A DNA stretch of 33,103 bases from a virus (IMGVR_UViG_3300032315_000031:1-33103); one strand, 5' to 3'. Shown: positions 2,656 through 32,964, counted from the stretch's first letter. Notes: generated from the sequence alone by a model not told the origin. Numbers and translations are program-made.

Positions 2656-2833
2656 GTGGGTGTTTCCGTATGCCTACATGCAGCCGGGGGATAGTTTCTT
2701 TATCCCTACGCTGCGCCCCGCCCAGATGATCTACGCCGCTGACACAGCGGCGAAGAAGGCAGACATCCGTGTAAAGATTTATACCTGTCACAAGGACGGT
2801 CATCTAGGCGTACGGGTTTGGCGTATGGATTAG
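2630..2833 (+). CDS. Small conserved phage protein with GDSFF...GVRVWR pattern
   Basis: A 67-residue protein of unknown function that overlaps the end of the primase-helicase by 26 bases. It contains PGDSFFIP near residue 20 and ends GVRVWRMD. I recall this pattern from small proteins next to phage replication genes, possibly the family named DUF7303, but cannot confirm it. An in-frame ATG at 2582 would give 83 residues with a 74-base overlap; neither start has a clear ribosome binding site, and I prefer the smaller overlap. Its stop codon overlaps the stop of the opposing late gene. A perfect inverted repeat lies inside it at 2734-2752. Confidence 0.7.
   Translation: MEQLTEEPEWVFPYAYMQPGDSFFIPTLRPAQMIYAADTAAKKADIRVKIYTCHKDGHLGVRVWRMD
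2734..2752. other. Perfect GC-rich inverted repeat (8-bp stem, 3-base loop)
   Basis: CGCCGCTG at 2734-2741 and CAGCGGCG at 2745-2752 are exact reverse complements separated by ACA. It lies about 80 bases before the point where the two convergent transcription units meet. It has no T-tract on either side, so it is not a standard intrinsic terminator. It may slow or fold transcripts from either direction, or be chance within coding sequence. Confidence 0.4.
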
Positions 2834-5800
2834 AACTCATACCCCATGGCTTTGTACATATCTACTAGTTGCATCTTGAGCAGGGACTGCTGTACACGGT
2901 TTGCTTCTAGTAGATCACGCTTTGTATTGTAGTCGTAGTCGGTGCTTCGTCTAATTTCTTTTGCTTCGCTACGCAGGTCTTTAAGTTCACCGTTAGCATC
3001 GCCTTTGTACTGCTCGACCAAGAATTCATCCAGTGGGTTATCCGCAAGATACTTGTAGTACATCTCTATGTCCGACTGCTCCAACTCTTTGAGCCGGTCT
3101 TTGCGCCGATCTAAGTCCTTCTCAATCTTGTTCCACATTCTCGCGTCATAGTCGGAGCGCGTTCCAATAAAGCCGGACAGGATCAAACTGTCTTGCTTTA
3201 ATATTTCTGTTGTAGACCGTTCTGACCCCATGCCGATGGTAAACATATTCCACCCAGCCGCGCCAACTTTTGCCAATGCATCTATATAGGCAGACGCGAA
3301 GAAGTACATTTCATTAGGCCCAAAGTCAAACCCAGTGGTTCTAAAAAGAGCTATTGATAGGTCTTTATACATTTTAGGTACGTTGTCTGCACCCGTATAC
3401 ACACTGCCATTTGGCCCTTGACGGTTGTTGTAAATCTCTTGTCCAAGAGAGTTATAGTTCATAGCAAACTCAACAAGCGGCTTAAGCGGAGCTGGGGCCA
3501 CCGAGTCAATAATAAATTCACTGGGCTTTTCTATGATGCTGCCTCTTGAAACAGGCAGTGGCAGGAACGAGTCCATCAGGATCGGCACCATGTTTGCCAG
3601 CACTTCAGTAAACTTAGTGTCGGAGTTCCCCAGCGAGGCTATCTGAGCGCCAAGTGCAGCAAACGCACCCATACCGAAGCCCCACGGGATTGTAATGATG
3701 TCGTTAACTCCGGGACCGATAAAGAACCGAGCGTCGCGCATCCAGCGAGACATGTCGTCTGTAGCTACACGGTTACGTCCAAAGTCATCCTCACCCGCCC
3801 CGGCGTACGCAAGGTAGTACATGGCTACGCCAAATCCAAACAACACTGCGGAAGTATTTTTACCGCGCTCGGCTTGCTCAATAAACTTCTTGGTGAACTC
3901 TTCGCGGTTGCCCTTGGTTCGCAGTTCTGTGGGTAGCTCAGCCCATGCACGATCAGCCGCTGCCTTATACCCGCCAAACACAGAAGATATAGCGGGAGCT
4001 AGAGACTCAGTAACACGCACGGCACCGGTAGCTGACGCGCTAAAGAACATAAACCACGCGCCCATCTGATTGGCCTTTAAACCTCTTTCTTCGAAGTTAG
4101 CCAGACCTTTAGCAAACGCTGCCGCTGGTTTATTGGCAGCTTGTTCGGCATCAGCACGGCTCATACCCTTCTTCATGAGTTTGCCAATTTCTTCTGACTT
4201 GCGCATCTTGAACGCAGCGGCGCGGCTAGTGAATTCAAACGCCGCCATGTAAACATCGAAGAACTTGGTGACATTCTCAAGCCCTTTAGCTGTAGCTGAT
4301 TTGTTTGCCTGACCTAGCAGGTCACGAAACTGCCCCTTAGAAGTAAAGCTGCTGACGTAGGCAATGTCGCCGCCGTTCTGCAAGTAGTCAAGCAGGTCTT
4401 TGACGTGGCCCGATTTATCTTTAGCTAATAGTTCTTTCAGACGTGGGTTCTTAGACGGATCAGCGCCGCCTTCGTAAAACGCTTTAGCAACAGCACCCGA
4501 CTTGTAGAAGCCGTTGGACACTACGTAGTTGGCAATTGAGCCAACGTAGTTAGCCGCCGCGCCGGGGGTCATATCAATACTTATATTAAATGCGTTAGCC
4601 AGCATGTCACGCACGAAGTTCTTAGGTGCGAACGCTACGTTGTAGCGCGTATGGGTCTGCCCCATGTAGCTGGTGAAGGTGTTTAGCTTATCTATTATTC
4701 CGCTGCCTGTTTGGTACGTCTTACGGATAGCGTTACGCAGCCGATCGTTTTTAACCGATATAACAGCCACTTCACCTTCTGGCATGTAATACAGGAACAC
4801 GTTTTGATTGCTCATTAGTTTGAGCAACTCCGGGTCTGACTTTATGTTGTACCGATCTTGAAACGAAATCGTCTTGATCTTCCCATCTATTAGTCCGGTA
4901 TTAACTAAGTTGTACAAGTTCTTAGTCACGTCCTTGCGTCCAGACCTCGAAGCGGCTACTGCCGCATCAGCCATCATTGTAAGAATCGGGTTGTCAGGCA
5001 GCGTGTAGCGCCCCTCCTGCGTATATTCTTTCTGCTGAAGCTCGCGTCCAAGCGCCTGCTCACCGCCGTAGAACAAGTCGGCATCTTTATCTTCTACGGG
5101 CTTACCCTTGTATGTGACGTAGTTCTTATAGCCATAAAAGTCTACGAGATTATCAACCTGCGGCGACCAGTAGTTAGCCTGCTTGTTAAGCATGATAGTA
5201 ACTTCAGACAACTCGCGAAGCTTTGCCAAGACGTCATCCATCATCTTCTTTTCAGCTTTGTTTTGGTCAAACGTAGCCAAGTGCCTCTGAACATCGGCGG
5301 GTTCTAGCCCAGCTAGAACGCTGTAGTTACCGTGTGATATATCAAATTCAGGTACGTTCTTACCTTCTTTGCCCGGGTCGAGGTTATTCTTATCAGCAAC
5401 TATCTTATCCAACAGCTTGCGGTATTCCTGCGCCAGCGTTTTAGGCGTAATACCTAACTTAGCAGCGTTGTCTTTTAAATCAGTCTTTGATGTTAGTTCA
5501 GCAAAAATCCTAGTGCGGGCTGTATCGGGACTGATTGCTGTGCCGTACCAGTTTATGTTGTTTATGTCCGAGCGTAGCGGCACCTTCCTCAAATACTTAA
5601 CGGCGCGTACTTCGCTCTCGTGCATCACGGTACCATAGGCTGACAGGCGTTTTAGTACCGTGTCGATTGACTGCCCAGTCTCTTTAGCGATATCAACCAG
5701 CATCTCATTGATCTGGTCTATGGTTGGATTGACGTAAGTGTTGTAAAAATTACGGAAGTTGCCTGCTCCCAAAGATATGGAGTCGTAAATGTTATTGGCT

Positions 5801-8800
5801 TCCTTCTCGTTACCAACAACAAGCAGCCCGCTACGGTCTAATTGGCGCTGGAAGTCTTTAACAGGGTACTGCTCATTCTGATATTGCCGAGCGAGTTCCT
5901 TAGCCCGGCCCGATAGCCCACCTGTGAACCATGACTTAATTGAACCAAAGAACCCTTTGGGCTTTTCAGGCAGCTTCTGACCCTCAATAAATTCTTCTGT
6001 GGTCTTGCCTGCGTACTCCCCAGCCTTCTTGGGCTCCCCCATAAACGATACGCCCTCGGCTTTGCCGGGAGTCTTGGCACCGCCTTCGAATGGGCCAGTC
6101 AGCATCGTCTGGATGTTTTCTAGAACTTGGCTCGACACATTGTCAGCCTTGATACCAAGCAGCTGCATGACACGTGTAGCGAATTCTCTAAGCGCGTTCT
6201 TAACCTGTAGGACTTTACTGAGCGGCGGCATCTGGGCCATGTCAGCTACGAACTCTGAGTTAGAAAACGCTTGAGCGAGGAACTCTTTGAGGGTGCCGAT
6301 CTCGTACTTCTTGCCTAGCTTATTCTTGACGTGCTCATGCAACTTGCCGAGGTTGTCCAGAGCAATCTTCTGGATCGGGGTCAAGTTCTGTGGGTTGTCC
6401 ACCGCACGGTCAGTGATGAAGTGCGCGTACTCATGCAGCACCACCACGTCGAGCATTGTTTCACGTGGAACCTTTGGATCGATTGTGATTGTTTCAGTCG
6501 CTGGGTCGTACATGCCGGGGCGGTTGCCCTCTACCTTACCGATCACGACGGTTGGCTTGATACCCAGCTGACTTAAGACTTTCTCGATCTGTGAGGCGAA
6601 CAGCTTGGTGGCTGGGTCGGTATAGCCGGTCTTGACGGCACGTAGGATCGAATTGGTATCGCCAGAACGCAGAGCGGCTACAGTCTCCCGCTCAATGATA
6701 TTCTCGCTTTCCTTCTTCTCTTCAACTTTCCTAGTCGTAACCGGCTGCGCTTCGCCTTTCTTAGCGGTGGCAACCGTAGTGCCAGCCTCGGCAGCAGCTT
6801 TCTTACGGGCTTCCCGAATATCGGAGGCCCTCTTCTTGCCTAGCTTGCCAACACCCTTAATCTCTGCCGCAAGAGTTTCTTTACGCTTGGCTTCAACCGT
6901 TTTCTTTTGATCTTCAGATAGCGACTCAACAAATTTATCGCGTACCCGTTTTCTACTTTTAATGTGTGGCTTAAACTCTTTGGCAGCGTTATCAATAGCG
7001 GTTTCGCGCTCGCTTTGCGTCATCCGTCCCAGAATGTCGTAGATCGTTACTTCTTCTGGCTTGGCAGATGGGATGCCAAGCTTTTTGTTCTCTTCAACTT
7101 TAGCTTCATTAGCATCATTTTCAGCTTTTATCTGCTCGGCGTAAGTTGTCTTGAGGGTAGATAGCGCGGCGTCAAACTCATCAAATGCGGCTTCAGCGCC
7201 AGCAAAGTTTATTGCCTGATTAATATCTTTAGGCGGCGCTCCGCGTGTGCCTACCTTAGAAGCTACGAACGGCTTATGTTCTTTAGTTAGCCCTGCCTCA
7301 GTTGGCGCAGCTTTCTCTTCTTCGAGCTTAACTACGCGCTTGGAGGGGGTGAAGGGTTTTTCCTCTTTTTTCGGTTCTGCTTTGACGGTTTCAAGGGTTT
7401 GAGTGACATCGGCTTTTTCCTCTGGTATTACTTGTTGCAAGCTTGTAATAGGAACGGTGCGCAGAAGCTCGCCCATCTCATCTTTTATGCTTATGTCTGC
7501 GCGATTACCTGAAGTGTTTAATATCGTAACCGGAGTGCTACCTCCAAGCTCGTTTAAAATTGCGGGGCCCGGTACTAATGCAGCTGGCTGCGCTCCTTCT
7601 GCCACAGCAGCTGGTTCAATAGGTCCTCCAGCAGGCACCACTCCAGCGGGTTCAGGTGCTTTAATTCTTGTGGCGGGCTCTCCCACTCCTGATGCAGAAC
7701 TAACAACGCTAGGCTGATCTCCTGCGGGGATAGCTTCAATAGGCTTGACACTTTCAACCCCCTTTAAATCCGTATTAAGTAGGTCTTGAATTCTTTCTAG
7801 ATAGGGTAAAGCCAGCTTATTGCCATTTGAATCAAGCCCAGTTTCAAGCATACGCTCGTAGCGATACTTAGCTTCTTCGGGGGTTTCATCCTCACGTTTC
7901 GGAGGAGGCAGGGCTGCTTCCCGGGGGGCTCCAACAGCCGCGTCTACAGCCGCAAGTGGGTCAGCTTCTATTGCTGGTGCAGCGGGGGGCGTTTGATTAA
8001 GCTGTGCCGCAGCCGCCTGTTGTTCAGGTGTAAGAACGCCAAACGGTAGATTAGCCGCGCTTTCAGCGGCTTGGGCTTGTGCCTGTACAGCTTCGGCTTG
8101 AGGAACTATAGCAGCAGCGGTTTCCGCAGCAGTCTGTGTAGCTTGCTGGGCTTCTAGTTCTTTACGGGCAGCGTCAGCTGCAAGAGCTTGACTTGTTTCA
8201 ATCGCCCCGATACCCGCACCCGGAATAAAGCCAAGCGCCGCGCCTAGTGTAGCGGCACCCGCCACACCTTTTGTTGGGTCAATCCGTGGGTCGTATTCTT
8301 GAGCAGCCGCGCGTCCAGAGTATTCGGTTACACCTTCTTCAAAGCCTTCTTGCGCTGATTCAAATAAGCCTGTTTTGATCGCTCCGCCTAGGGTAGAACC
8401 AGCTAGTTTCCTACCACCTACACCAGCTAAGAATTTTTCAACACCGAACGCACCGGTTGCGCCGCCGACTAAAGCAGGGACAAACGACGCACGCCGGGCC
8501 GCAGTACGCGCAGCGTCTTCTTTTACTTTCTCTAGCGGTATGCCTTTTTCTACTTGACTACGAATAAAGTCGTTCTCTAAGAGAATTTCATCCGGGGTAT
8601 TCATCACCAATTCGTAGGCTGAACCCCCAGCGTCACCACCCGCCATCGCAGCGTTAGTCACGATACCGGCACCCAAACCTAAACGGCTTGCGGTTTTCTC
8701 TGCCAGTTTGAGTAATTGAGCTGCTTTCTGTGTGCCTTTAATAGCTAGACCGGGGCCAGCAAAAGAACCAACCGCTTGACCGGCAGCTTGCAGGGGGTTT

Positions 8801-9186
8801 GTGGCTACATATTTAGCAGCGGCTGAGACTTCTTCGCCTATGGTTTTAGCTTCTGCTAAATTACGCTGGAACTCTTCGCGCCCAGCTTTAACCATATCAC
8901 TCTGTGATCTTTCGCCCTCTTTAATTATTTCATCTACTGCTTTGGAGAACGAATTACCCGGGGCTACAAAGTCAGCCGCTGCTTTAGCTCCGCCCGCCGC
9001 TGCGTTTGCAATACTGATTACAGTATCGTTCATAACAGCAAATATGTTGCGGGTCTTTGGCTCAAGCTTTGGCTCAGCGCTTAACTTAGCCTGTATAGCT
9101 GAGATAACCTGCTCTCTCGTAGCTCCTTCAGGCCCGTCAATTTCATACGTTTTACCGCCCGGGCCTTTGATTTCGTAAGTAGGCAT
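2830..9186 (-). CDS. Giant polyvalent internal-virion protein with zinc metallopeptidase motif
   Basis: A 2118-residue protein, last gene of the late unit. Residues 1-35 carry an ER-x-GP...GPEGAT type motif (MPTYEIKGPGGKTYEI) that I recall at the start of large virion proteins. Residues about 45-330 are Ala/Gly-rich and amphipathic, and 340-700 are Pro/Ala/Glu-rich linker. HEYAH at 918-922 is a zincin HExxH motif, with Glu968 a possible third ligand. Residues about 1510-1830 (RYNVAFAPKNFVRDML onward, with hydrophobic segments) resemble the large-polyvalent-protein domain LPD38. The end is a charged coiled coil. Such proteins are packaged and ejected with the genome and may act on the host envelope or defences; this role is inferred from family and position (the T7 gp16 slot). 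The ATG at 9186 follows AAAGGTTAAAG, three bases after the upstream stop. Confidence 0.85.
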   Translation of the reverse strand: MPTYEIKGPGGKTYEIDGPEGATREQVISAIQAKLSAEPKLEPKTRNIFAVMNDTVISIANAAAGGAKAAADFVAPGNSFSKAVDEIIKEGERSQSDMVKAGREEFQRNLAEAKTIGEEVSAAAKYVATNPLQAAGQAVGSFAGPGLAIKGTQKAAQLLKLAEKTASRLGLGAGIVTNAAMAGGDAGGSAYELVMNTPDEILLENDFIRSQVEKGIPLEKVKEDAARTAARRASFVPALVGGATGAFGVEKFLAGVGGRKLAGSTLGGAIKTGLFESAQEGFEEGVTEYSGRAAAQEYDPRIDPTKGVAGAATLGAALGFIPGAGIGAIETSQALAADAARKELEAQQATQTAAETAAAIVPQAEAVQAQAQAAESAANLPFGVLTPEQQAAAAQLNQTPPAAPAIEADPLAAVDAAVGAPREAALPPPKREDETPEEAKYRYERMLETGLDSNGNKLALPYLERIQDLLNTDLKGVESVKPIEAIPAGDQPSVVSSASGVGEPATRIKAPEPAGVVPAGGPIEPAAVAEGAQPAALVPGPAILNELGGSTPVTILNTSGNRADISIKDEMGELLRTVPITSLQQVIPEEKADVTQTLETVKAEPKKEEKPFTPSKRVVKLEEEKAAPTEAGLTKEHKPFVASKVGTRGAPPKDINQAINFAGAEAAFDEFDAALSTLKTTYAEQIKAENDANEAKVEENKKLGIPSAKPEEVTIYDILGRMTQSERETAIDNAAKEFKPHIKSRKRVRDKFVESLSEDQKKTVEAKRKETLAAEIKGVGKLGKKRASDIREARKKAAAEAGTTVATAKKGEAQPVTTRKVEEKKESENIIERETVAALRSGDTNSILRAVKTGYTDPATKLFASQIEKVLSQLGIKPTVVIGKVEGNRPGMYDPATETITIDPKVPRETMLDVVVLHEYAHFITDRAVDNPQNLTPIQKIALDNLGKLHEHVKNKLGKKYEIGTLKEFLAQAFSNSEFVADMAQMPPLSKVLQVKNALREFATRVMQLLGIKADNVSSQVLENIQTMLTGPFEGGAKTPGKAEGVSFMGEPKKAGEYAGKTTEEFIEGQKLPEKPKGFFGSIKSWFTGGLSGRAKELARQYQNEQYPVKDFQRQLDRSGLLVVGNEKEANNIYDSISLGAGNFRNFYNTYVNPTIDQINEMLVDIAKETGQSIDTVLKRLSAYGTVMHESEVRAVKYLRKVPLRSDINNINWYGTAISPDTARTRIFAELTSKTDLKDNAAKLGITPKTLAQEYRKLLDKIVADKNNLDPGKEGKNVPEFDISHGNYSVLAGLEPADVQRHLATFDQNKAEKKMMDDVLAKLRELSEVTIMLNKQANYWSPQVDNLVDFYGYKNYVTYKGKPVEDKDADLFYGGEQALGRELQQKEYTQEGRYTLPDNPILTMMADAAVAASRSGRKDVTKNLYNLVNTGLIDGKIKTISFQDRYNIKSDPELLKLMSNQNVFLYYMPEGEVAVISVKNDRLRNAIRKTYQTGSGIIDKLNTFTSYMGQTHTRYNVAFAPKNFVRDMLANAFNISIDMTPGAAANYVGSIANYVVSNGFYKSGAVAKAFYEGGADPSKNPRLKELLAKDKSGHVKDLLDYLQNGGDIAYVSSFTSKGQFRDLLGQANKSATAKGLENVTKFFDVYMAAFEFTSRAAAFKMRKSEEIGKLMKKGMSRADAEQAANKPAAAFAKGLANFEERGLKANQMGAWFMFFSASATGAVRVTESLAPAISSVFGGYKAAADRAWAELPTELRTKGNREEFTKKFIEQAERGKNTSAVLFGFGVAMYYLAYAGAGEDDFGRNRVATDDMSRWMRDARFFIGPGVNDIITIPWGFGMGAFAALGAQIASLGNSDTKFTEVLANMVPILMDSFLPLPVSRGSIIEKPSEFIIDSVAPAPLKPLVEFAMNYNSLGQEIYNNRQGPNGSVYTGADNVPKMYKDLSIALFRTTGFDFGPNEMYFFASAYIDALAKVGAAGWNMFTIGMGSERSTTEILKQDSLILSGFIGTRSDYDARMWNKIEKDLDRRKDRLKELEQSDIEMYYKYLADNPLDEFLVEQYKGDANGELKDLRSEAKEIRRSTDYDYNTKRDLLEANRVQQSLLKMQLVDMYKAMGYEF

Positions 9187-9188
9187 CT

Positions 9189-11777
9189 TTAACCTTTAAC
9201 GCGTAGTTCACCCCAACCAGAAGTATCCGCTTTAGATGAACCTGCGGGGGCTGTCTCTTTAAAAGCTTCAGGATAGTCTTTCTTATATCTCGCTTCAATT
9301 TCTCTGCGGGTTGTAGAGAGTTCACGCTCAATCTGTTCAATCTGCGGCTGATATTTTTTCTGAGTTTCTGTAGGCATTGATTTGAATCTATCAAGCTGTT
9401 TACGTTTTGCCTCAGTTTGATCTTTGTATGCTTTATCTATGGCTTGTTCAACCAAGCGCCTTTCTTTATCCGCTCTCGCTTCACCGCCACCACCAGTAGC
9501 AGCCGCACGTAGCGCCGCCGATTGAATACTAGCTTGTTTCTGCATTTCCGCAGAAGCCATTTGCGCGGCTGACGTTCTCTTATTCTCAAACTCATGCACT
9601 TGCAGTTTGCTAATATCTAAAGACAGCTTTGCGAGATTACCCTTGGCTTCTTGGTCAAGCTTATAAGCATCATCCACCCTGCCCTTTTTCTCCATGAGTG
9701 CGGCGCGGTCTAGATCATTTATGCTCTTGTTAATTTCTTTCTGGAGTGCACGAGCCTTGTCCTGATCTTCAATCAAATCAGGTATGGTGTTATTAATAGA
9801 CATAACCGCAGCCCTTAAAATCGGCCCGGGCGTTGAACCAAACTGAGCAAACATCTGTGCCCAACGCAAGTACTCAGCTTTCTTGGCGTCGCCCTGCGCC
9901 CGCTCCAAGGCTTTCTGTTGCTCAACCTTTTCATTCTGAATCATGGCGATTGGGTCAATCCCATACTTGTCATAGAGCTTTTGTTTACGCTCCATCTGAC
10001 CTTCTATACCTACATCCGCTTCTGTTTTAAAGCTTGTTTGCTGCGCTTTTAATTCTTCAAGCGCTTTATTTGGCTCCGCAGCAATCCGCTTGTACTCAGT
10101 TTGAAACGGACTAGTATCTACCGCTGGCTTAGGCGCAGCGGCTTTCGGACGTGAGGCAACCGGTGGGGCGGCTTTCTTAGGCGCTTCGTCTTTCTCTTTA
10201 AACGGATTGTCTACTTCGTCAACTTTATTACCTTCTTTAAATGCAACTATCCCGCCACTAGCCATACCACGCACTTTATCGCGGCGCTGCTTCTCAGCTT
10301 GAGCAATCCCTAATGTCTCAGGGTCAGTGTCTTGTGGGTTTGTTTTCTTCTTAAGCTGGTCATCAGACAGCTTCTTCATCATCCCCGGCAGTTTGTATGG
10401 GTCAACGCCTGACGCAATCCCGCCGCCAGCCATCTCTTTAATGTGCCCGCCTTCCGCTCTGCCGCCATAAGCGTTATACATATTAGCAGCGGCACCCATA
10501 AAACCGATGCCCTGTTGAAACATAGAGGGTTGTGCTTGGTACATCTGGGTAGATGACGCTTGCATCGGCAAGCCACGTAGCATGTTAGACAATGTGCCTA
10601 ACTGAATGAACGGGTATTGCTGCTCGGTAGCGTAATCTTGGATAATCTGGTTTAGACGCGCTTGCTCGTAGGCTTGTTGTTTTGCTCCTATGTCGTACTG
10701 TTGGCCCATTAAGCCCATTTCCTGCTGGTATTGCTGAGCGCCGAATTGACCTAGCTGCTGTGCGCCCCGCATTGCTTGATCGTAACTGCGTAACCCTAAC
10801 TCAGAGCCAAACTGACGCGACTGTTCTGAAGCTCGTTGGGCTTCTAGGCCATAACGCGCGGCGGTTTCCGCAGCGGTCATCTGTTGACCGTAGCCAAACT
10901 GACGAGCTTGCTCCCCTAACTGTTGTACACCCAACCGTGCGGCTAGGTTTTGCTGGCCTGTACCAAAGCCCATCTGCTGATTAGCCAATGATGCTTGTAG
11001 AGCGCGTTGTTGGTCGATTTGGAACTGCTGTGCGCCTTGCTCAAACGCTGCTTGTGATCCACGCGTCTGAATATCTTCCATCTGCTGACCTAGATTACGC
11101 TGGCGCTCGGCCTCAACCATTGCAGACCTTGATCCGCCAAACGCGCCTTGCTGCGCAGCCTGTGCTTGCTGTTGTTGACGCATGATTCCCGACTGACGCA
11201 GTGCTTCGCGCTTGCCGATATCTGTCACCGCTTGTTGGTACGGCGACATGTACTGCTGCATTACGTTAGGGTCGATGAACTTACCCGTGCTAACATTCTC
11301 CGGGCGCTCCATTTGGTACTGTTGCAGGTCGGACATGGAGTACTGTCCGGGGGCGCTATATTGAGAGTTAAATGAAGTTGGGTCATACTTACCCGCCCGC
11401 AGCGAACCCGTAATAGCTTGGTTTGTGTAATCAGAAGCAAGCCCCGTCTGTCCGGGTAGCTGATATCTTTGCAGGTTGCCCATTGCCTGCGCCTGCATAG
11501 GAGTAAAACCAGCTACTGTTTCGCCTGTGCCCGCGCCGTACTTTTCCTCCATCGCCGTCTTAAAAGACTTGTACGGTTGGAAACCAGTGGCCTTACCATC
11601 TTCAAAGTTAAATATTTGTCTTTCTGTAGCGCCCATCATCCGCTCAACATACGGTTGAGCGTACTCAGGAATATTTGAGGTCTGCGAATACGTGTAGTTA
11701 GGGCCGCCACCGCCCCCGCCCGGATAAACCCGACGACCGTCATTGCTGTAACCGTTAAACTTATTCCTGATAATCAT
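9189..11777 (-). CDS. Gln/Ala-rich internal virion protein
   Basis: An 862-residue protein with no enzyme motif. After an N-terminal Gly run (about residues 20-25), residues about 160-400 are extremely Gln-rich with heptad-like spacing and include GAFGGSRSAMVEAERQR, a motif I recall from internal or tail proteins of many phages. The middle carries Gly-Gly motifs (EMAGGGIASG, GMASGGIVAFKEG). The C-terminal third is charged and probably coiled coil. It lies directly before the 2118-residue polyvalent protein and after a possible GNAT-fold gene, matching the slot of T7 gp14/gp15 ejection proteins; that role is inference. The start ATG overlaps the upstream stop as ATGA, with AGGAAA as the ribosome binding site. 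Confidence 0.75.
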   Translation of the reverse strand: MIIRNKFNGYSNDGRRVYPGGGGGGPNYTYSQTSNIPEYAQPYVERMMGATERQIFNFEDGKATGFQPYKSFKTAMEEKYGAGTGETVAGFTPMQAQAMGNLQRYQLPGQTGLASDYTNQAITGSLRAGKYDPTSFNSQYSAPGQYSMSDLQQYQMERPENVSTGKFIDPNVMQQYMSPYQQAVTDIGKREALRQSGIMRQQQQAQAAQQGAFGGSRSAMVEAERQRNLGQQMEDIQTRGSQAAFEQGAQQFQIDQQRALQASLANQQMGFGTGQQNLAARLGVQQLGEQARQFGYGQQMTAAETAARYGLEAQRASEQSRQFGSELGLRSYDQAMRGAQQLGQFGAQQYQQEMGLMGQQYDIGAKQQAYEQARLNQIIQDYATEQQYPFIQLGTLSNMLRGLPMQASSTQMYQAQPSMFQQGIGFMGAAANMYNAYGGRAEGGHIKEMAGGGIASGVDPYKLPGMMKKLSDDQLKKKTNPQDTDPETLGIAQAEKQRRDKVRGMASGGIVAFKEGNKVDEVDNPFKEKDEAPKKAAPPVASRPKAAAPKPAVDTSPFQTEYKRIAAEPNKALEELKAQQTSFKTEADVGIEGQMERKQKLYDKYGIDPIAMIQNEKVEQQKALERAQGDAKKAEYLRWAQMFAQFGSTPGPILRAAVMSINNTIPDLIEDQDKARALQKEINKSINDLDRAALMEKKGRVDDAYKLDQEAKGNLAKLSLDISKLQVHEFENKRTSAAQMASAEMQKQASIQSAALRAAATGGGGEARADKERRLVEQAIDKAYKDQTEAKRKQLDRFKSMPTETQKKYQPQIEQIERELSTTRREIEARYKKDYPEAFKETAPAGSSKADTSGWGELRVKG

Positions 11778-12183: not shown

Positions 12184-13884
12184 TTACGCAGGCAGGTGTT
12201 TGTCAGCTTTACTATTAACTGCTACTTTCTTTTTACCGATACTCTTTCTGCGGGTGTTTTGAATCCGCTCCATCATCGCGTAAAGCTTTCTAGCCCCTGC
12301 TTCAGTTGAGCCATTGCCCAACTCAGAGACGATACGCGCTGGAATTACAAACTCACCATCAGCAAGACGAGCAGGCTGACGTTTACCAATGACAGCAGGA
12401 ATAGAATCCGAAACTCCATCGCCGGGGCCTCTCAAAAGTCGTCCACCATCGGAATAAGAACCCAAGTTACCCATGATGCCACCTTGCGCGGCCTCAATTG
12501 GGATGTCCATGTAGTTATCTATATCGCCAAGATTAGTCTTAGGCATTTCCGCTACGGGCACTTTGGATTTTTTAGCAAGTCGTGCGTATTCATCCATAGC
12601 AGCAGAGTATGGGCTGCTTAATTGTTGTTTTCTACTACGAGGAATAATTCCTTCGTCGAACTTTTTGCCAAGGGCTTCTACATCACTTAATTGCTTCTTA
12701 CGTTCTTTTTCCATTTCGTCATAGCTTTCCCCTATCCCTCGCAAAGCGCGTTGTTTGCGAGTCTTTAGCCCGTACTCTTTTGCATCTGCTTTTGAAATGC
12801 CGCCGGACGCCATACGTGGCTCTCCGGTATAACGCCCAACCGGAGCGTCTAACGCTTGGGGAATTACATTATTTGGCATTGGGCGCTGCACCATCGGGTT
12901 GCTATACATCGGCGTCTGGTACTGCGACTGCGGATACATAGTGTTGTCACCAATTGCATTTTCTGCGGACATCTGTTCAACGGGGCCACCTACTGCAAAC
13001 TTCTGATATTCGTAAGAACGCTCAAAAGGTTGAGGAGTAGCTACGCTAGGCTTAAACTTACTCATATCCACCATACTCTTGTATTCTTTCTTTTCTGGTG
13101 GCTTGGGTTTATTCATAAACTGCCCAGCGGTCATTAGTCCAATACCGGTTTGCAGTGGGTTATCTTGCGCATACTGCAACGCAGCCTCAAAGCCTCTCTC
13201 GAGCGCACTTTTTGGCGCTAAAGGAAATGCCGTTTCTTTCATCCCCATTAACTGCTCCGTTGGGGCTGACGCCATTTGTGATATACCTTTGTCAGACGCT
13301 GCCCTAGCAAGGGTGCCGGGATCGTTATATGGGGCTCCTCGCGGTAGGAAATTCTGTGTAAGTTCTGGTGGTGCGTTACCTAAACCAGCCGCGTCTTTAA
13401 ATGCCATTGGCGAGCTACCGGCAGGTGGGGGTGGAGCGGCAGGCGGAGCAGCAGGCGGAGCAGCAGGCGGAGCAACAGCCACAGGCGGAGCAGCAGGTGG
13501 GGGTGGGACAGCAGGTGGGGGTGGAGCAGCATAAGGAGGAATAGGTGTCGTAGTCGCAGGATTAAAATAAGCAGAAGGGCCGGCGCCTTGCATAATGCCT
13601 TGAGTACCTGCCTGCGTTGCGGCTTGCGTTGCGGCTTGCGTTGCGGCTTGTGTCCCCGCCTGAGTAGCAGCTTGTTGTATGCCAGCTTGTGCAGCCTTTT
13701 TCATAGCGGCTTGAATAGTAGCCTGTTTAGCTGCTTCTACTGCAGCGGTTTGAGCGGCAGCAGTCCCGGCAGCGGTAGCGGCGGTAGCGGCGGTAGCGGC
13801 GGGTATAGCGGCGGCAGTGGTAGCAGCAATAGCGGGTGCGGCGATAGCGGACTTAGCAATAGCAGCGGCGACAATTTGTGGCAT
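12184..13884 (-). CDS. Low-complexity Ala/Pro-rich virion protein with conserved DGEFVIPA C-terminal module
   Basis: A 566-residue protein. Residues 1-100 are almost only Ala, Thr, Gln and Gly; about 110-160 are Pro/Ala repeats. The middle holds Gly-Gly motifs (KFAVGGPVEQM, RMASGGISKADAKE, AQGGIMGNLG). The C-terminal 100 residues differ in character: GPGDGVSDSIPAVI, then LADGEFVIPARIVSELGNGS, then AGARKLYAMMERI. I recall this module at the C-terminus of structural proteins in many environmental phages; its function is not known to me. The gene sits in the internal-virion block between two small genes that may have GNAT folds. Its ribosome binding site GGGAGA lies inside the last codons of the preceding gene. 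Confidence 0.7.
   Translation of the reverse strand: MPQIVAAAIAKSAIAAPAIAATTAAAIPAATAATAATAAGTAAAQTAAVEAAKQATIQAAMKKAAQAGIQQAATQAGTQAATQAATQAATQAGTQGIMQGAGPSAYFNPATTTPIPPYAAPPPPAVPPPPAAPPVAVAPPAAPPAAPPAAPPPPAGSSPMAFKDAAGLGNAPPELTQNFLPRGAPYNDPGTLARAASDKGISQMASAPTEQLMGMKETAFPLAPKSALERGFEAALQYAQDNPLQTGIGLMTAGQFMNKPKPPEKKEYKSMVDMSKFKPSVATPQPFERSYEYQKFAVGGPVEQMSAENAIGDNTMYPQSQYQTPMYSNPMVQRPMPNNVIPQALDAPVGRYTGEPRMASGGISKADAKEYGLKTRKQRALRGIGESYDEMEKERKKQLSDVEALGKKFDEGIIPRSRKQQLSSPYSAAMDEYARLAKKSKVPVAEMPKTNLGDIDNYMDIPIEAAQGGIMGNLGSYSDGGRLLRGPGDGVSDSIPAVIGKRQPARLADGEFVIPARIVSELGNGSTEAGARKLYAMMERIQNTRRKSIGKKKVAVNSKADKHLPA
13437..13815. repeat. In-frame minisatellite tracts in the 566-residue protein gene
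   Basis: Three kinds of short direct repeat lie in this gene: GCAGGCGGAGCA-like 12-mers near 13437-13530 (encoding Pro-Pro-Ala runs), TTGCGTTGCGGC 12-mers near 13611-13652 (Ala-Thr-Gln-Ala), and AGCGGCGGT-like 9-mers near 13768-13815 (Ala-Thr-Ala). Unit lengths are multiples of three, so copy-number change would keep the frame. Confidence 0.8.
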
Positions 13885-28881: not shown

Positions 28882-29145
28882 TCAACCCATCGGGCCTCGT
28901 GCCATTACGCCTTTAGTCGCAGCACCTGTGCCGCGAATTTTGATACCAGTTGTTTTTGCTTCTTTGTAGTTGCCTTTGCTAACTACACCACCAGCAATGT
29001 TCATCTCGTCCATGTATTTAGCGCCCTCGTTGCGGCTCGCATATGAGGTCACGTTGGTATCTTTACCCTCCATCGTGTGCGGTGGGGCATACACTTCTGC
29101 AGGGCCAACTTCTTTACCCTGCTTCTTCATAGAGTACTTAGCCAT
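28882..29145 (-). CDS. Small basic phage protein with IKIRGTGAATKGVMARGP ending
   Basis: An 87-residue protein, Lys/Gly-rich. Its end TTGIKIRGTGAATKGVMARG is a pattern I recall at the C-terminus of small connector-region proteins in marine phages. Function unknown. AGGGG lies before the ATG, and the ATG shares its first base with the stop of the 55-residue gene upstream. Confidence 0.72.
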   Translation of the reverse strand: MAKYSMKKQGKEVGPAEVYAPPHTMEGKDTNVTSYASRNEGAKYMDEMNIAGGVVSKGNYKEAKTTGIKIRGTGAATKGVMARGPMG

Positions 29146-29312
29146 TATTTACCCCTTGAGTTGCCACGCTGGTTCATAGCACGCGCCATGTTACGTCCAT
29201 ACTTCTTCATGGCTTCGCCGGTTACGCCGCCTTTAGCCATTTTTTTGGCTCCGTGCATACGCTTTTCATGTCCTTCGACTGCTTTGTCAGCTACTTTTTT
29301 CATGCTGTCCAT
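29145..29312 (-). CDS. 55-residue basic protein with KMAKGGVTGEAMKK motif
   Basis: Small gene between the zinc-ribbon gene and the 87-residue gene. The protein begins MDSMKKVADKAVEGHEKRMH and continues KMAKGGVTGEAMKKYGRNMA, ending NQRGNSRGK. GGAG lies 5 bases before the ATG at 29312, and the stop TAA shares its last base with the next ATG, both typical of the neighbours. It carries one of the Gly-Gly motifs found in other proteins of the late unit. Function unknown. Confidence 0.75.
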   Translation of the reverse strand: MDSMKKVADKAVEGHEKRMHGAKKMAKGGVTGEAMKKYGRNMARAMNQRGNSRGK

Positions 29313-29320
29313 AGTTACTC

Positions 29321-29728
29321 CTACGAGATTGTTACACTGCCTATCTGTGCAGGTGACGTTAAAGCATTCGGTGTCAACCCTACATCATCTGATCTTGAAC
29401 CACCTACCGGTGCCCATCCCCACTGAAATACTCTACTACCGCCTGACGGGTCACCAAAGTCTGTATTTAACGTCAACTGCAACCCTGTGTAGCCGGACTG
29501 CTTGTAGCTATTATCAGGGCGCGGTTCCCGTACTGCTTGGGGGTCTTGCACCGGGTACATACCTAACTGCAACTGCGGCTGATCCGGTTCCCAACACGTA
29601 GGGCACACCTTAATCGTAACCTGCTTGGTCTTGATCGTCAGCTTTTTTAACTCTTTTAGCTTGTAGCGAAACCCGCAGCGGTCACATTCTGCAATCGAGT
29701 TCTTACCACTAGCAAACCTATTACCCAT
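29321..29728 (-). CDS. Zinc-ribbon connector-region protein
   Basis: A 135-residue protein. Cys15-x2-Cys18 and Cys42-x2-Cys45 (ECDRCGF ... VCPTCWEPDQP) form a two-knuckle zinc ribbon. The rest is a Gly/Pro-rich beta segment. I recall this start (zinc ribbon followed by LG-x-PV-x-DPQAVR) from many environmental phages, in which it lies among connector genes; it may stabilise the head-tail joint, but this is inference. Its ATG forms TAATG with the stop of the preceding gene. Confidence 0.75.
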   Translation of the reverse strand: MGNRFASGKNSIAECDRCGFRYKLKELKKLTIKTKQVTIKVCPTCWEPDQPQLQLGMYPVQDPQAVREPRPDNSYKQSGYTGLQLTLNTDFGDPSGGSRVFQWGWAPVGGSRSDDVGLTPNALTSPAQIGSVTIS

Positions 29729-30468
29729 TAGAAAAACATCTCTCTCGGCACAAGCCGGTCAGCAGCCTTCTCGCGGTCTTCACCTGCCGCCAAGTCCCAA
29801 GCTTCGTCATACATCAACTTCAAGGCTTGAATCCGCATCGGGTCAACTTCTGCTTTCTTTACCGCAATCATATAAGCCAGCCCTGCTACCAAGCAATTCT
29901 GAAAGCGGAACGGTATATCAATCACGTTCGTGCCGGTACCGGCATCATAAATACGCTTTAACCGCCAGTAGTAAAACACGTAGTACGGGTTCTGGGTCGT
30001 GCCTTGATCCGGCGCAGGCCATACATTAATCTGTGGGTATTTCGGTACGGCTACGTTAGACCCGACTTGCTGCCCCGACTGACGGTTAATCCAGACCTGA
30101 ATCGGACGCCCTTGTGCCAGCTTGTTGGGGATAGTTGAGTAGGTCGAAACCGAAATACGAGTGATGTTCAAATCCGTCTGATTAGGGCCTTGTCCGGAAT
30201 CAGTGCGAATAACATGTTCAACCAGATCAACGGTATCATTAGGTAGATCATAGGTAGTCACTCCCTGCGCTAAGTTGATCGAACCCTGCTCAATAGTCCA
30301 CAGGTTAATGCCCCGGTTAGCCCACTCGCCAATCAGGAAGTTCAGACTACGCCGTGCTGTACGAAAATCATAGCCCGTACGCAACTCCAAGCCACAACGC
30401 TCAAACGCCTCTTCGAATATCTCGTTGAGGTCGGGATTAAAGCTAGTTGTGTTGGTTGTAAAGGCCAT
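29728..30468 (-). CDS. Head-tail connector/adaptor protein (tail tubular A-like)
   Basis: A 246-residue protein: LNEIFEEAFERCGLELRTGY, ARRSLNFLIGEWANRGINLW, VTTYDLPNDTVDLVEHVIRT, YYVFYYWRLKRIYD and a C-terminal helix bundle (FQNCLVAGLAYMIAVKKAE). This is a common adaptor of environmental podovirus-like phages, often labelled tail tubular protein A. It should form a ring under the portal. The second adaptor at 28161-28880 belongs to a related fold class. The ATG overlaps the previous stop as TAATG. Confidence 0.8.
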   Translation of the reverse strand: MAFTTNTTSFNPDLNEIFEEAFERCGLELRTGYDFRTARRSLNFLIGEWANRGINLWTIEQGSINLAQGVTTYDLPNDTVDLVEHVIRTDSGQGPNQTDLNITRISVSTYSTIPNKLAQGRPIQVWINRQSGQQVGSNVAVPKYPQINVWPAPDQGTTQNPYYVFYYWRLKRIYDAGTGTNVIDIPFRFQNCLVAGLAYMIAVKKAEVDPMRIQALKLMYDEAWDLAAGEDREKAADRLVPREMFF

Positions 30469-30701
30469 TACCTAAACCCCGCTGTCTTCTTCGCAATACT
30501 CTTGGGTTGTGCTACAAACTGCTTTCCCGCCTTCTTGCCCGCCCGCTTTGCTTTCGTCGTTGCTGCGTACTCCGCTGGGCTTAATGCTTTGATTGCCTTC
30601 TCCGGCAAGTACCTTTCGCCAGTCTTGGAGGATGGCTTCCCACTCTTTGTGCGCCATTTTTGATCCCCCCAGTTTTTAAGCGATTGTTGCGGAGCTTTCA
30701 A
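30468..30701 (-). CDS. Small basic protein (probable DUF5872), TTG start
   Basis: A 77-residue, very Lys-rich protein: LKNWGDQKWRTKSGKPSSKT, then GERYLPEKAIKALSPAEYAA. I recall this as DUF5872, found in phages and some giant viruses; the number is from memory. Its function is unknown; the charge suggests nucleic acid or capsid-interior contact. No ATG exists in the frame. The TTG at 30701 overlaps the stop of the previous gene as TTGA and has a GGGGG run upstream. Confidence 0.78.
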   Translation of the reverse strand: MKAPQQSLKNWGDQKWRTKSGKPSSKTGERYLPEKAIKALSPAEYAATTKAKRAGKKAGKQFVAQPKSIAKKTAGFR

Positions 30702-30973
30702 TCTTTATACCCCCCGCCTGCTGCCTTGTACTTCTTAGCCACCAACTGCGCTTTACGGGCTGACCACTGACCAGCACCTGTGCCATGCGTTGCTGCGGCC
30801 TTTACCTGAGACACAATCCTCTTACGCAACCCGGGCTTGGTGTAGTTACCAGCAGCATTAACCTTCCCACCTTCTTTATACTGCGTGAAGTCGGTGTTAT
30901 CCCGACGGGCTTTTTTCTTCCCGCCGGGCATCTTAGAAGGGTTAATCGCACCCATGCCGCGTGAGGTCATCAT
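30698..30973 (-). CDS. Small basic protein with GQWSARKAQLVAKKYKAAGGGY ending
   Basis: A 91-residue, Lys/Gly-rich protein. The ending AGQWSARKAQLVAKKYKAAG recurs in small phage proteins (possibly the family called DUF6321; name from memory). The middle has KEGGKVNAAGNYTKPGLRKR, one of the Gly-Gly motifs of this region. Its first two codons are both ATG; the first overlaps the previous stop as TAATG. Confidence 0.75.
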   Translation of the reverse strand: MMTSRGMGAINPSKMPGGKKKARRDNTDFTQYKEGGKVNAAGNYTKPGLRKRIVSQVKAAATHGTGAGQWSARKAQLVAKKYKAAGGGYKD

Positions 30974-31395
30974 TAGCAGTACCCGCCTTTTTTCATGTTT
31001 TTAGCGCCAGCCATCGACACTTGTCTAGCCTTGGTCTTGCCTTTAACAGCAACACCATCGGCTTGTTTGTGACCAGCAGCCAGACCGCCCGAAGCCATCT
31101 TCTTCATAGCCATACCACCTTTAGCCATCTTGCCCTTACCGTCAGCAGCAAAAGCTGGCACTTTCTGACCATCCTTCATGACCATAGGCATACCACCACC
31201 GGCGTAACCGCCCATTGCCATCTTCTTAACCTTACCGCCTTTTTTCATCATTGCCTTTGATTCTTTCATCTCACCGCCTCCTGATTTAGTGAACTCTTGT
31301 CCCACGGTTACAGGGACGCCGACCTTCTTTGCGAACTTCGGGTTATTCGCTACTGCTTGCATGAATCTTTCTTGCTTGGCAGATTTAGCTGGCAT
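30973..31395 (-). CDS. Small basic protein, MPAKSAKQERFM type, with five Gly-Gly motifs
   Basis: A 140-residue protein. The N-terminus MPAKSAKQERFMQAVANNPK with FAKKVGVP is a motif I recall from many phages. The rest is low complexity: MKKGGKV, KMAMGGYAGGG, KMAKGGMAM, KMASGGLAAG, NMKKGGYC. The ATG at 31395 overlaps the stop of the preceding gene (TGATG) and has AGGAAGG eight bases before it; the longer frame to 31401 starts at a weaker codon. It may be packaged in the capsid (inference). Confidence 0.75.
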   Translation of the reverse strand: MPAKSAKQERFMQAVANNPKFAKKVGVPVTVGQEFTKSGGGEMKESKAMMKKGGKVKKMAMGGYAGGGMPMVMKDGQKVPAFAADGKGKMAKGGMAMKKMASGGLAAGHKQADGVAVKGKTKARQVSMAGAKNMKKGGYC

Positions 31396-31934
31396 CAGCA
31401 AATCCTTCCTTTAGTCTTACCACGCTGGGCGATACCATCCGCGCGGTTAGAAGCCGAAGACACCTTACCGCCCTTCTTAAACTCTACGCCACGACTATCA
31501 ATCCCCATACGTTTGTTATCACGCATGGTTCTTTTAGGGTCTAGATCACTGCCAAGATTCATAGAATAAGGGTCTCTTAGACTAGAACCCGCCATTTTGC
31601 CAGCCCCACTAACAGAGGTTTTACTGGCACGTTCTTTACGATCCTGCTCAGACTTCCTCATGCCGCTAAGTGCTGCTGCCGCACCAAGAGCCACACCCGT
31701 ACCAGCAAGAGCCGCTGCCGTACCACGATTGGTTGGCTTTTTAGTTTCGCCCTCGTCCTCGTCCTTTTTACTAGCCGGACGCTCGGACTCATCAGGACCT
31801 TTATCTTTTTCTTTCAGCTTGGTGTTGTACTTCTCACCATTCCACTCAAAGCTCTTCTTGCCCTCTTTGCGGGCTTCGGCAAAGGCTTCTTTAAAAGTAG
31901 AGCCCTTGTCGTCGTAGTGTAGTTTCTCTTTCAT
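31395..31934 (-). CDS. Small charged protein with FKEAFAEARKEG start and shared C-terminal tag
   Basis: A 179-residue protein. Residues 13-40 (STFKEAFAEARKEGKKSFEW, then NGEKYNTKL) are a motif I recall from the N-terminus of small phage proteins. Then comes a Lys/Asp/Glu-rich linker, an Ala/Gly hydrophobic segment (about 72-95), and the C-terminal tag GGKVSSASNRADGIAQRGKT that the next two upstream genes also carry. Start at 31934: TAATG overlap, GGGAGA upstream. The hydrophobic segment could be a membrane helix or glycine zipper. Confidence 0.72.
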   Translation of the reverse strand: MKEKLHYDDKGSTFKEAFAEARKEGKKSFEWNGEKYNTKLKEKDKGPDESERPASKKDEDEGETKKPTNRGTAAALAGTGVALGAAAALSGMRKSEQDRKERASKTSVSGAGKMAGSSLRDPYSMNLGSDLDPKRTMRDNKRMGIDSRGVEFKKGGKVSSASNRADGIAQRGKTKGRIC

Positions 31935-32290
31935 TAGCAAATTCTCCCTTTGGTCTTGCCGCGCTGAGCAATGCCGTCAGCACGAGCCGACGCTGAACTA
32001 ACTTTGCCGCCAGATTTCATGCCGTTTCCTTTAGGTGGCAAACTTTTACGCGCTGCTTCGCCAACCGATTCTGCAAAACTTTTTTCTTTTTCTTTTTCTT
32101 TTTCTTTTTCTTTTACGGGCGGCTTTGAAGGCATTAGTTTTGCGCCAAGCCCAAGTAATGCTTCACGAACAGCTTTGCGCGGGGCTTCATTTTCCTCGCG
32201 TTCTTTTTTTAGCTGTTTCTCGTAAGCCTCGTTTTCTTTCTTTACAAGCGCGTCTCTACGAGCGTTTTCAATTTCATTTTCCATAGGCAT
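31934..32290 (-). CDS. Small coiled-coil protein with KE repeat and shared C-terminal tag
   Basis: A 118-residue protein. The first 50 residues are a Lys/Glu-rich helix (ENARRDALVKKENEAYEKQL), then comes a KE repeat encoded by a hexamer tract, then the tag GGKVSSASARADGIAQRGKT. The start codon shares a base with the preceding stop (TAATG), with GGGAGG before it. Function unknown; the charged helix could be a scaffold-like or capsid-interior protein. Confidence 0.72.
   Translation of the reverse strand: MPMENEIENARRDALVKKENEAYEKQLKKEREENEAPRKAVREALLGLGAKLMPSKPPVKEKEKEKEKEKSFAESVGEAARKSLPPKGNGMKSGGKVSSASARADGIAQRGKTKGRIC
32081..32114. repeat. Hexanucleotide microsatellite (TTTTTC)5TTTT
   Basis: On the + strand five exact TTTTTC units are followed by TTTT. 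On the coding (-) strand they encode alternating Lys-Glu in the 118-residue protein. The unit is six bases, so slippage would add or remove Lys-Glu pairs without a frameshift. Confidence 0.9.
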
Positions 32291-32964
32291 TACAGTACCC
32301 TCCCACGAGTCTTGCCACGCTGTGCGATACCATCAGCACGCTTGGACGCTGAACTTACCATTCCACCGCGCTTCATAATTGGGTTGCCCATAGTGTCGTA
32401 TTGAATCTCATCTGCTCCACGCTGCTTTTTCTTTTGTTCTTCACGATAGCGGCGCATGGAGTCTTGGGCTTTATCCAGACGTTCTTTAGTCAGGAATGTA
32501 TTCTTGGGACCCATACCACTTGTACTAAATTTAAAGTTACCTTGTGACCCAAGTTTTGCTGGCGCTTCGCCTGAAGTGTCTTGCGCAGCGGGAGTTACAT
32601 TCTTTGGCTTTTCAGACTTCGGTGTTGCTTTTTTAGGTTTTGGCGTAGGGTAGTTATCACTACGCATTACTGCTTCATCAGCGCCTTCTGGAATGAGTTC
32701 AGGGCGACCTTTCGACGCGGCCATAGCGCGTTTTTCTCCGGCGCTAATCGTCTTTGGTTCTTCCTTTGGCTCCGCTTTCGACTCTATAGCGGGGGCTTCT
32801 GCATCTTTCTTGCCGCTTCTGAACTCTTTGACTTTACGAGCGTAGTCGCTGTCGTCTTTGTCCTTATCTTTCAACTTCTTATACAAGTCGTAGCCAATCA
32901 TGCCTAGACCTATTCCGGTCAAGATGTCGCCACCACTAGCAAATTTTTTAGTTTTGCGTTTCAT
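32290..32964 (-). CDS. Lys-rich protein with N-terminal hydrophobic segment and shared C-terminal tag
   Basis: A 224-residue protein. It starts MKRKTKKFASGGDILTGIGL, where a Gly-Gly motif runs into a short hydrophobic stretch (about 12-28); then a Lys/Glu/Pro-rich disordered body, a helix (SMRRYREEQKKKQRG) and the tag RGGMVSSASKRADGIAQRGK. It is the first of three adjacent genes with this tag. The ATG lies three bases after the preceding stop, with no clear ribosome binding site, so it is probably translated by coupling. Confidence 0.72.
   Translation of the reverse strand: MKRKTKKFASGGDILTGIGLGMIGYDLYKKLKDKDKDDSDYARKVKEFRSGKKDAEAPAIESKAEPKEEPKTISAGEKRAMAASKGRPELIPEGADEAVMRSDNYPTPKPKKATPKSEKPKNVTPAAQDTSGEAPAKLGSQGNFKFSTSGMGPKNTFLTKERLDKAQDSMRRYREEQKKKQRGADEIQYDTMGNPIMKRGGMVSSASKRADGIAQRGKTRGRVL

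Follow-up and report, generated by a model that had tools for sequence, protein, structure and literature searches.

A conserved peptide on unrelated small proteins encoded beside the capsid gene of an aquatic podovirus lineage: a candidate C-terminal docking or encapsidation signal

Why would consecutive viral genes with unrelated bodies end in nearly the same peptide? The question arises from a whole IMG/VR virus record of 33,103 bp (IMGVR_UViG_3300032315_000031; here called the window). On its minus strand, which carries genes 1–4 and the adaptor gene described below, three consecutive ORFs with unrelated bodies share the 25-residue end GG(K/M)VSSASxRADGIAQRGKT(K/R)GRxx, and each overlaps the start codon of the gene after it. 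Gene 1 (32290..32964, 224 aa) contains the N-terminal MKRKTKKFASGG, a disordered basic body (pI 9.9), and at its C-terminus the tag copy GGMVSSASKRADGIAQRGKTRGRVL (32293..32367, 51.1 bits with a tag HMM). Gene 2 (31934..32290, 118 aa) has a disordered charged body with an (EK)n run, and ends in GGKVSSASARADGIAQRGKTKGRIC (31937..32011, 50.4 bits). Gene 3 (31395..31934, 179 aa) contains a short alpha-beta-beta module, then a disordered linker, and ends in GGKVSSASNRADGIAQRGKTKGRIC (31398..31472, 51.9 bits). The net charge of the tag is +5 in each gene.

A degenerate DNA pattern for the tag core gave 3 matches in the window, vs 0 in 100 dinucleotide shuffles, and tblastn with the tag on the window recovered the three copies at E 3e-10 to 3e-9. 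The preliminary description of near-identical ends on three consecutive non-homologous genes was borne out. The bodies of genes 1–3 matched no Pfam, PHROG or credible NCBIfam family; a sub-threshold NCBIfam match to gene 3 was rejected as spurious. A Pfam search with genes 1–4 gave no match, including none to the profile of DUF6321 (PF19846), a domain discussed below. Among about 290 related loci, genes 1 and 2 minus the tag had no homologue, and homology of gene 3 minus the tag was restricted to part of the N-terminal region around the alpha-beta-beta module.

Gene 4 (30973..31395, 140 aa, phrog_16759) contains an MPAKS module at its N-terminus and a Gly/Lys/Met-rich body with the end GGYC. 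The weaker form of the tag attributed to this gene is present as a degenerate copy, ADGVAVKGKTKAR (31024..31074; tblastn E 5e-4, HMM 19.1 bits), but it is sub-terminal, lying inside gene 4 and not at its terminus.

To place these copies in context, the degenerate tag pattern was searched in IMG/VR, where it matched at least 120 stretches with at least 204 instances, in agreement with the earlier statement that the same ending occurs in other aquatic phages. Among the pattern matches listed, 135 of 204 instances end exactly three residues past GKT[RK]G, and the tag HMM was built from 133 ends lying at this distance. Searched as a profile at 19 bits or more, the tag was found in at least 352 distinct copies in the loci gathered, a count of related sequences and not of independent events. 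The tag is not confined to one genome, and is a real and widespread label.

The position of the tag in the protein is predominantly C-terminal, with 212 of the 352 listed copies ending at most 3 residues from the stop and 110 lying 4–25 residues before it. Many of the 110 sub-terminal copies belong to the MPAKS family, with the end KMxxGGxC. Most of the other 30 listed copies are N-terminal in a small family ending in GRNMARANNQKRG, and the rest are internal or duplicated; N-terminal copies were found mainly in the GRNMARA family. The existence of sub-terminal and N-terminal copies indicates that a free C-terminus is not strictly required. The strict core was set by the search pattern, so that invariance at the pattern positions is partly by construction; the profile search and the variants in three loci (L174, L229 and L268), such as RGDGIAQRGKT and RADGCIRKGHT, show a wider true variation.

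Matches to the tag were present in 2 of 84,980 prokaryote species genomes, and both matching stretches are phage-like, with a phage major capsid protein (MCP) and adaptor, indicating that the tag is a phage feature. Two tagged-lineage phage contigs, L292 (JAGYJT010000012.1, 83.8 kb) and L293, lie in a Chitinophagales MAG and a Gammaproteobacteria MAG; these placements are possible host hints or binning errors. The letters of the tag gave no result in the literature. A tblastn search of isolate phages with the 25-aa tag gave no match, an uninformative outcome, since even a perfect short match would have an E near or above the limit. Neither a strict nor a loosened form of the tag was found in the annotated relatives HTVC023P, CRP-902, RLK and DSL-LC04, and a PDB sequence search with the tag, gene 4 and the MCP gave no match.

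Among 23 long tag-bearing records, the MCP was present in 22 and an SU10-type adaptor in 22, and with few exceptions the tag matches lie between the MCP and adaptor genes. One exception is L293, in which a tagged gene follows the first adaptor gene and has adaptor-region genes on both sides. The MCP is of the Mu gpT/Phage_capsid_4 type (Pfam PF25209 and PF10124), with the HK97 fold known for gpT. In the 22 long tagged records, it is 63–67% identical to the MCP of the metagenome-assembled phage DSL-LC04 (PMC10611076).

The association with the capsid gene was examined in both directions. All 49 tag-selected loci containing an MCP have the same MCP lineage. When 31 loci of this lineage, near the L021 MCP, were selected by MCP, each with at least 6 kb downstream, the strict tag was present in 20, and the tag at 15 bits or more in 28. 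In the sister lineage, that of DSL-LC04, the tag was found in 1 of 80 loci chosen by MCP; this locus, L174, is the sole tagged one among the 30 whose downstream sequence reaches 4 kb or more. Mapped on an MCP tree with 91 rows, the tag label requires 6 changes, vs 20.7 with shuffled labels. The tag follows one uncultured podovirus lineage, near HTVC023P and DSL-LC04, found in lake and sea. The window record stops just upstream of gene 1, short of the expected MCP position. Its SU10-type head-tail adaptor (29728..30468) shows up to 82% identity to the tagged lineage and up to 56% to the DSL-LC04 lineage, and this closer relationship assigns the window to the tagged lineage.

Removal of the tag left 306 bodies of 35 aa or more, which formed 106 blastp clusters, including 82 singletons. 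The members of the largest cluster (128 bodies) are linked in a chain by modules that they have in common, MPAKS and the alpha-beta-beta element among them. Further evidence of portability came from DUF6321, which usually ends in ...RINKSLRAWNC. In six tag-selected loci, the tag directly follows this domain; L255, with a diverged form, and L293 also combine DUF6321 and the tag, for a total of seven or eight genomes. Most DUF6321 relatives have no tag after their native end RAWNC. In L052, the tag lies downstream of, and outside, the DUF6321 match. The preliminary description had inferred a portable peptide module, and at least 352 copies on at least 100 body clusters, together with tags appended past the native DUF6321 end, strongly support a module carried by at least 100 unrelated bodies.

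DUF6321 itself is a widespread C-terminal module of aquatic phages, occurring in hundreds of cyanophages and pelagiphages, and its last residue is usually Cys. The domain, as in the example at L052:7178-7498, matches several PHROG profiles of 99–928 aa at or near their C-terminal ends. Small proteins of this gene cluster often end in Cys (WNC or WKC in DUF6321, GGKC in the MPAKS family, MC or IC in the tag).

The bodies have a median length of 102 aa and a median net charge of +4.3 per 100 aa, and 85% of them fall on the disordered side of the Uversky charge-hydropathy line. Cys is absent from the body in 140 of 150 tagged proteins. Between genomes whose MCPs share 92% identity or more, a tagged homologue was found for 9% of the C-terminally tagged bodies; a second count, with the conserved MPAKS family included, gave 38% for tagged proteins vs 62% for untagged neighbors. 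Turnover of the tagged bodies therefore looks fast, with the reservations that homology between disordered sequences is underestimated by blast and that some ORFs in the untagged set are spurious.

AlphaFold2 models were built from shallow alignments of 12–14 sequences. The gene 3 model has pLDDT of about 90 for residues 11–40 only, which form a helix and a hairpin, and below 60 for the rest, including the tag. In a model of DUF6321 with the tag, for which two isolate-phage rows were left out of the alignment, the domain has pLDDT of about 60–80 and the tag about 30. The tag is thus predicted to be unstructured in both modeled proteins, as expected for a peptide that folds on binding. A Foldseek search with the gene 3 model found nothing significant.

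The confidently modeled part of gene 3 corresponds to the alpha-beta-beta module around STFKEAFAEARKEGKKSFEWNGEKYNT (31815..31904, residues 11–40). Its motif, SFxEAFAxARxAGxKTFxWNGKxYxT, predicted to form a helix and a hairpin, recurs in unrelated viruses, including the crAss-like cr107_1, two microviruses, Rhizobium phages, Pseudomonas putida phages, a Synechococcus phage, and Roseobacter and Pelagibacter phages. By sequence, it is a portable module found across viral realms.

The module of gene 4, MPAKSAKQERFMQAVANNPKFAKKVG (MPAKS; 31282..31395, residues 1–38), also forms the N-terminus of the jumbo-phage proteins GAP32_317 and CBB_322, and is encoded among the head genes of Stenotrophomonas phage BUCT555. 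MS/MS of purified virions identified CBB_322, whose numbering was verified against the genome, through 30 unique peptides (PMC5259590 Table 4). An MPAKS/MPSKS module is also present in phiKZ (PHIKZ165.1).

Whether the peptide or its DNA is conserved was addressed through codon usage. Different codons were used for 51% of identical residues in 52 same-genome tag pairs, 60% between genomes, and 64% in a random draw. Synonymous codons are nearly randomized between copies, showing that it is the peptide, and not the DNA, that is conserved. The preliminary description had proposed spread by local recombination, which finds no support in the window for recent events, since 18 of the 23 residues that tags 2 and 3 have in common are encoded by different codons. 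Recent gene conversion as the origin of the tag copies was likewise rejected on the codon differences; it is clear only in L050, the one multi-tag genome in which the tags, three of them, are near-identical in DNA.

An exception to the randomization lies at the 3' end. In the tag core, glycine 11 is encoded by GGR in 108 of 151 tags, whereas GGY is used almost throughout for glycines 2 and 7; the Arg after glycine 11 is nearly always xGR, and CGY predominates for Arg further upstream. In 147 of 151 tags, an ATG lies no more than 17 nt downstream. This bias indicates that the last two or three tag codons also serve as the Shine-Dalgarno sequence of the next gene. In the window, the Shine-Dalgarno sequence GGGAGG of gene 2 (32299..32304) lies in the last G-R codons of tag 1, whose gene overlaps the next in TAATG. 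A role at the DNA or RNA level, in which the 3' end is kept for the next gene's Shine-Dalgarno and start or as a recombination hotspot, would be consistent with these codons, with the close ATG and with the near-identical tags of L050. It accounts for the last 2–3 codons only, the other codons being synonymously randomized, and the tag also occurs in sub-terminal and N-terminal positions. As an explanation of the tag it is largely refuted for the core, and we consider it highly improbable.

Tags within a genome resemble each other beyond expectation. Identity at variable sites is 0.58 within genomes vs 0.42 when permuted (p 0.0002). Tag positions 5–6 are identical in 53% of same-genome pairs with different bodies vs 28% of random pairs, and in 26% of pairs with 75–100% identical bodies from other genomes (n=19). 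At tag position 6, all tags of a locus agree in R/K class in 43 of 58 multi-tag loci vs 28 expected from shuffling, some contigs being counted twice; across the MCP tree, this class switches 14 times. An underpowered scan of MCP columns found none co-varying significantly with the tag class. As the co-variation persists despite nearly saturated codons, it is best explained by adaptation to a shared partner; old gene conversion may be an alternative source.

A second dependence was found between two hydrophobic sites. Cys occurs at ADG[C] in 46 of 151 tags and at the last residue in 49 of 151, but at both sites in only 1 of 151 (Fisher p 1e-8, only indicative because the sequences are related). 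When not Cys, both sites are mostly I, V or L. The near absence of tags with Cys at both sites indicates that the two depend on each other, as if both were parts of one hydrophobic contact.

We hypothesize that a single podovirus lineage uses the tag as a C-terminal peptide for docking or encapsidation, a reading to which we give an even chance. Among the families of explanations, capsid targeting or co-assembly has the best support from the sequence patterns described: the tag is probably an address label, taking small disordered proteins encoded beside the capsid gene into the virus particle. Each tagged gene would give a small, basic, mostly disordered protein ending in an address of about 25 residues, with a GGxV-like lead followed by SASxRADG[I/C]AxxGKT[R/K]G[K/R]xx-COOH. 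The address would bind one common partner from the same late operon, for which the MCP lattice or its scaffold is the most likely candidate, ahead of the portal and the adaptor. Through this interaction, several unrelated proteins would be pulled into the head under assembly or onto its inner face. As the address resides in the tag, the bodies would be freely exchangeable and the tag fixed. The identity of the partner, the presence of the tagged proteins in virions and the role of the bodies after delivery are what we infer beyond the patterns themselves.

Counted in favor of docking, besides these patterns and the unstructured tag in the models, is that the MPAKS module of the tag carrier gene 4 also heads the virion protein CBB_322. 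Counted against it are the underpowered scan that linked no MCP column to the tag class; the DSL-LC04-lineage phages, with MCPs about 65% identical and no tag, which imply that this capsid type does not need the tag; the sub-terminal and N-terminal copies, and the L293 tagged gene past the first adaptor gene; and the basic character of the tag (+5), which might merely bind packaged DNA.

This last possibility is the main rival of an address peptide. In this view the tag would bind nucleic acid, and a disordered end rich in Lys and Arg would allow the small basic proteins to coat or condense packaged DNA, or to act on host DNA, with no need for a specific protein partner. The charge of the tag, the basic and disordered bodies, and the location of the genes in the head cluster fit this explanation. 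It leaves unexplained the conserved non-basic residues A, D, G and T at core positions 0–2, 4, 7 and 9, although their conservation is partly imposed by the pattern; charge alone would call for neither a C-terminal register nor the Cys exclusion, and restriction to one capsid lineage is unexpected for a generic DNA binder. We regard a DNA-binding tail as unlikely. Somewhat less probable still is docking to the neck, with the tag binding the portal or adaptor and marking ejection or neck-lining proteins instead of capsid-interior cargo. Tagged genes lie directly upstream of the SU10-type adaptor, and that of L293 sits between two adaptor-region genes, but adaptors of this family also occur in the sister lineage, which lacks the tag, and the observations fit capsid docking equally well.

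Two further explanations appear improbable. The suggestion in the preliminary description that the tag is a protease-recognition signal, for cleavage or degradation by a phage protease, found no positive evidence. The terminal location would suit it, and T4 likewise proteolyses its capsid-targeting sequences; on the other hand, searches not aimed at a gp21-like enzyme turned up no head protease in the vicinity of the tagged genes, and conservation reaches the last residues, with the Cys/hydrophobic exclusion, unlike a short scissile motif. The bodies could also be fast-evolving paralogues of one ancestral tagged gene, with the tag as an inherited, functionless tail. The likeness of the bodies in composition and the recurrence of small N-terminal modules are compatible with such descent, which we judge equally doubtful: a functionless tail would not be expected to be the most conserved part, whereas this one has been kept despite near saturation of its codons, and also follows DUF6321, a well-conserved domain unrelated to the other bodies.

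The docking or encapsidation reading has precedents. The capsid-targeting sequence (CTS) of T4 is N-terminal and is cut by the gp21 prohead protease. As with the CTS, a single short conserved peptide is found here on otherwise diverse phage proteins, in 106 body clusters. In T4, the internal proteins are a highly diverse set in which only the CTS is conserved (PMC3012670). The present tag differs in being C-terminal (212 of 352 listed copies lie within 3 aa of the stop and 110 at 4–25), in its length of about 25 aa and in belonging to a podovirus with a Mu gpT-type MCP. Encapsulin cargo peptides are C-terminal, sometimes N-terminal, and occur on unrelated cargo beside an HK97-fold shell gene (PMC7355545). 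The tag resembles them as a terminal peptide on unrelated proteins near an HK97-fold gene (22 of 23 long records), with both termini used, and they are its nearest C-terminal analogue. An encapsulin cargo peptide measures about 10 aa, and its binding site is a hydrophobic pocket in the shell, whereas the tag is longer, basic and viral, and its neighbors are a phage MCP and an SU10-type adaptor instead of an encapsulin shell. Because its position differs from that of the T4 CTS and its shell type from that of encapsulins, the tag falls in neither class; the best reading by analogy is that it works like them without being a member of either.

Two modules of the same gene cluster offer closer comparisons. 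DUF6321 is, like the tag, a short aquatic-phage module at the extreme C-terminus of unrelated proteins, but it is about 80 aa, partly folded in the model and present in many phages, whereas the tag belongs to one lineage. MPAKS/MPSKS (phrog_16759, 22033, 25121) is likewise a portable short module of phage head or virion proteins, and gene 4 has both; unlike the tag, it is N-terminal, unrelated in sequence, and present in jumbo myoviruses and other phages.

A more specific proposal, which we offer tentatively and hold to be less probable than docking or encapsidation as such, is that an abundant freshwater and marine podovirus lineage loads exchangeable small disordered proteins into its capsid via a C-terminal address and so delivers them to the host. 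Such a system would parallel the internal proteins of T4, having evolved independently with the address at the C-terminus, and the packaged repertoire would be readable from metagenomes by tag search. If the tag is an encapsidation signal, a sequence search would list the packaged, possibly injected proteins of many uncultured phages, and the tag would provide a short portable peptide to load foreign proteins into an HK97-type shell; the T4 strategy of a fixed address and changing cargo would have re-evolved at the opposite end of the protein. Regardless of encapsidation, hundreds of aquatic-phage ORFans gain a common, testable annotation.

Further observations concern other genes of the window. 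Two small genes at 28882-29145 and 29145-29312 have recurrent ends, ...TTGIKIRGTGAATKGVMARGPMG and ...GRNMARAMNQRGNSRGK. With its GIxxRGxGxATKG motif, the 28882-29145 family may represent a distant analogue of the tag; in relatives, the 29145-29312 family often has the ADG motif at its N-terminus (MAYTRSADGIAKKGKTEGKNLGNSGP). The protein encoded at 30698-30973 (phrog_17747) ends in QWSARKAQLVAKKYKAAGGGYKD, and is an untagged neighbor in DSL-LC04-lineage genomes too. A 2118-aa ORF at 2830-9186, beside tail/neck genes, is possibly an ejected or internal virion protein, and the ORFs at 9189-11777 and 12184-13884 contain GGIxxxxxGG-type glycine repeats.
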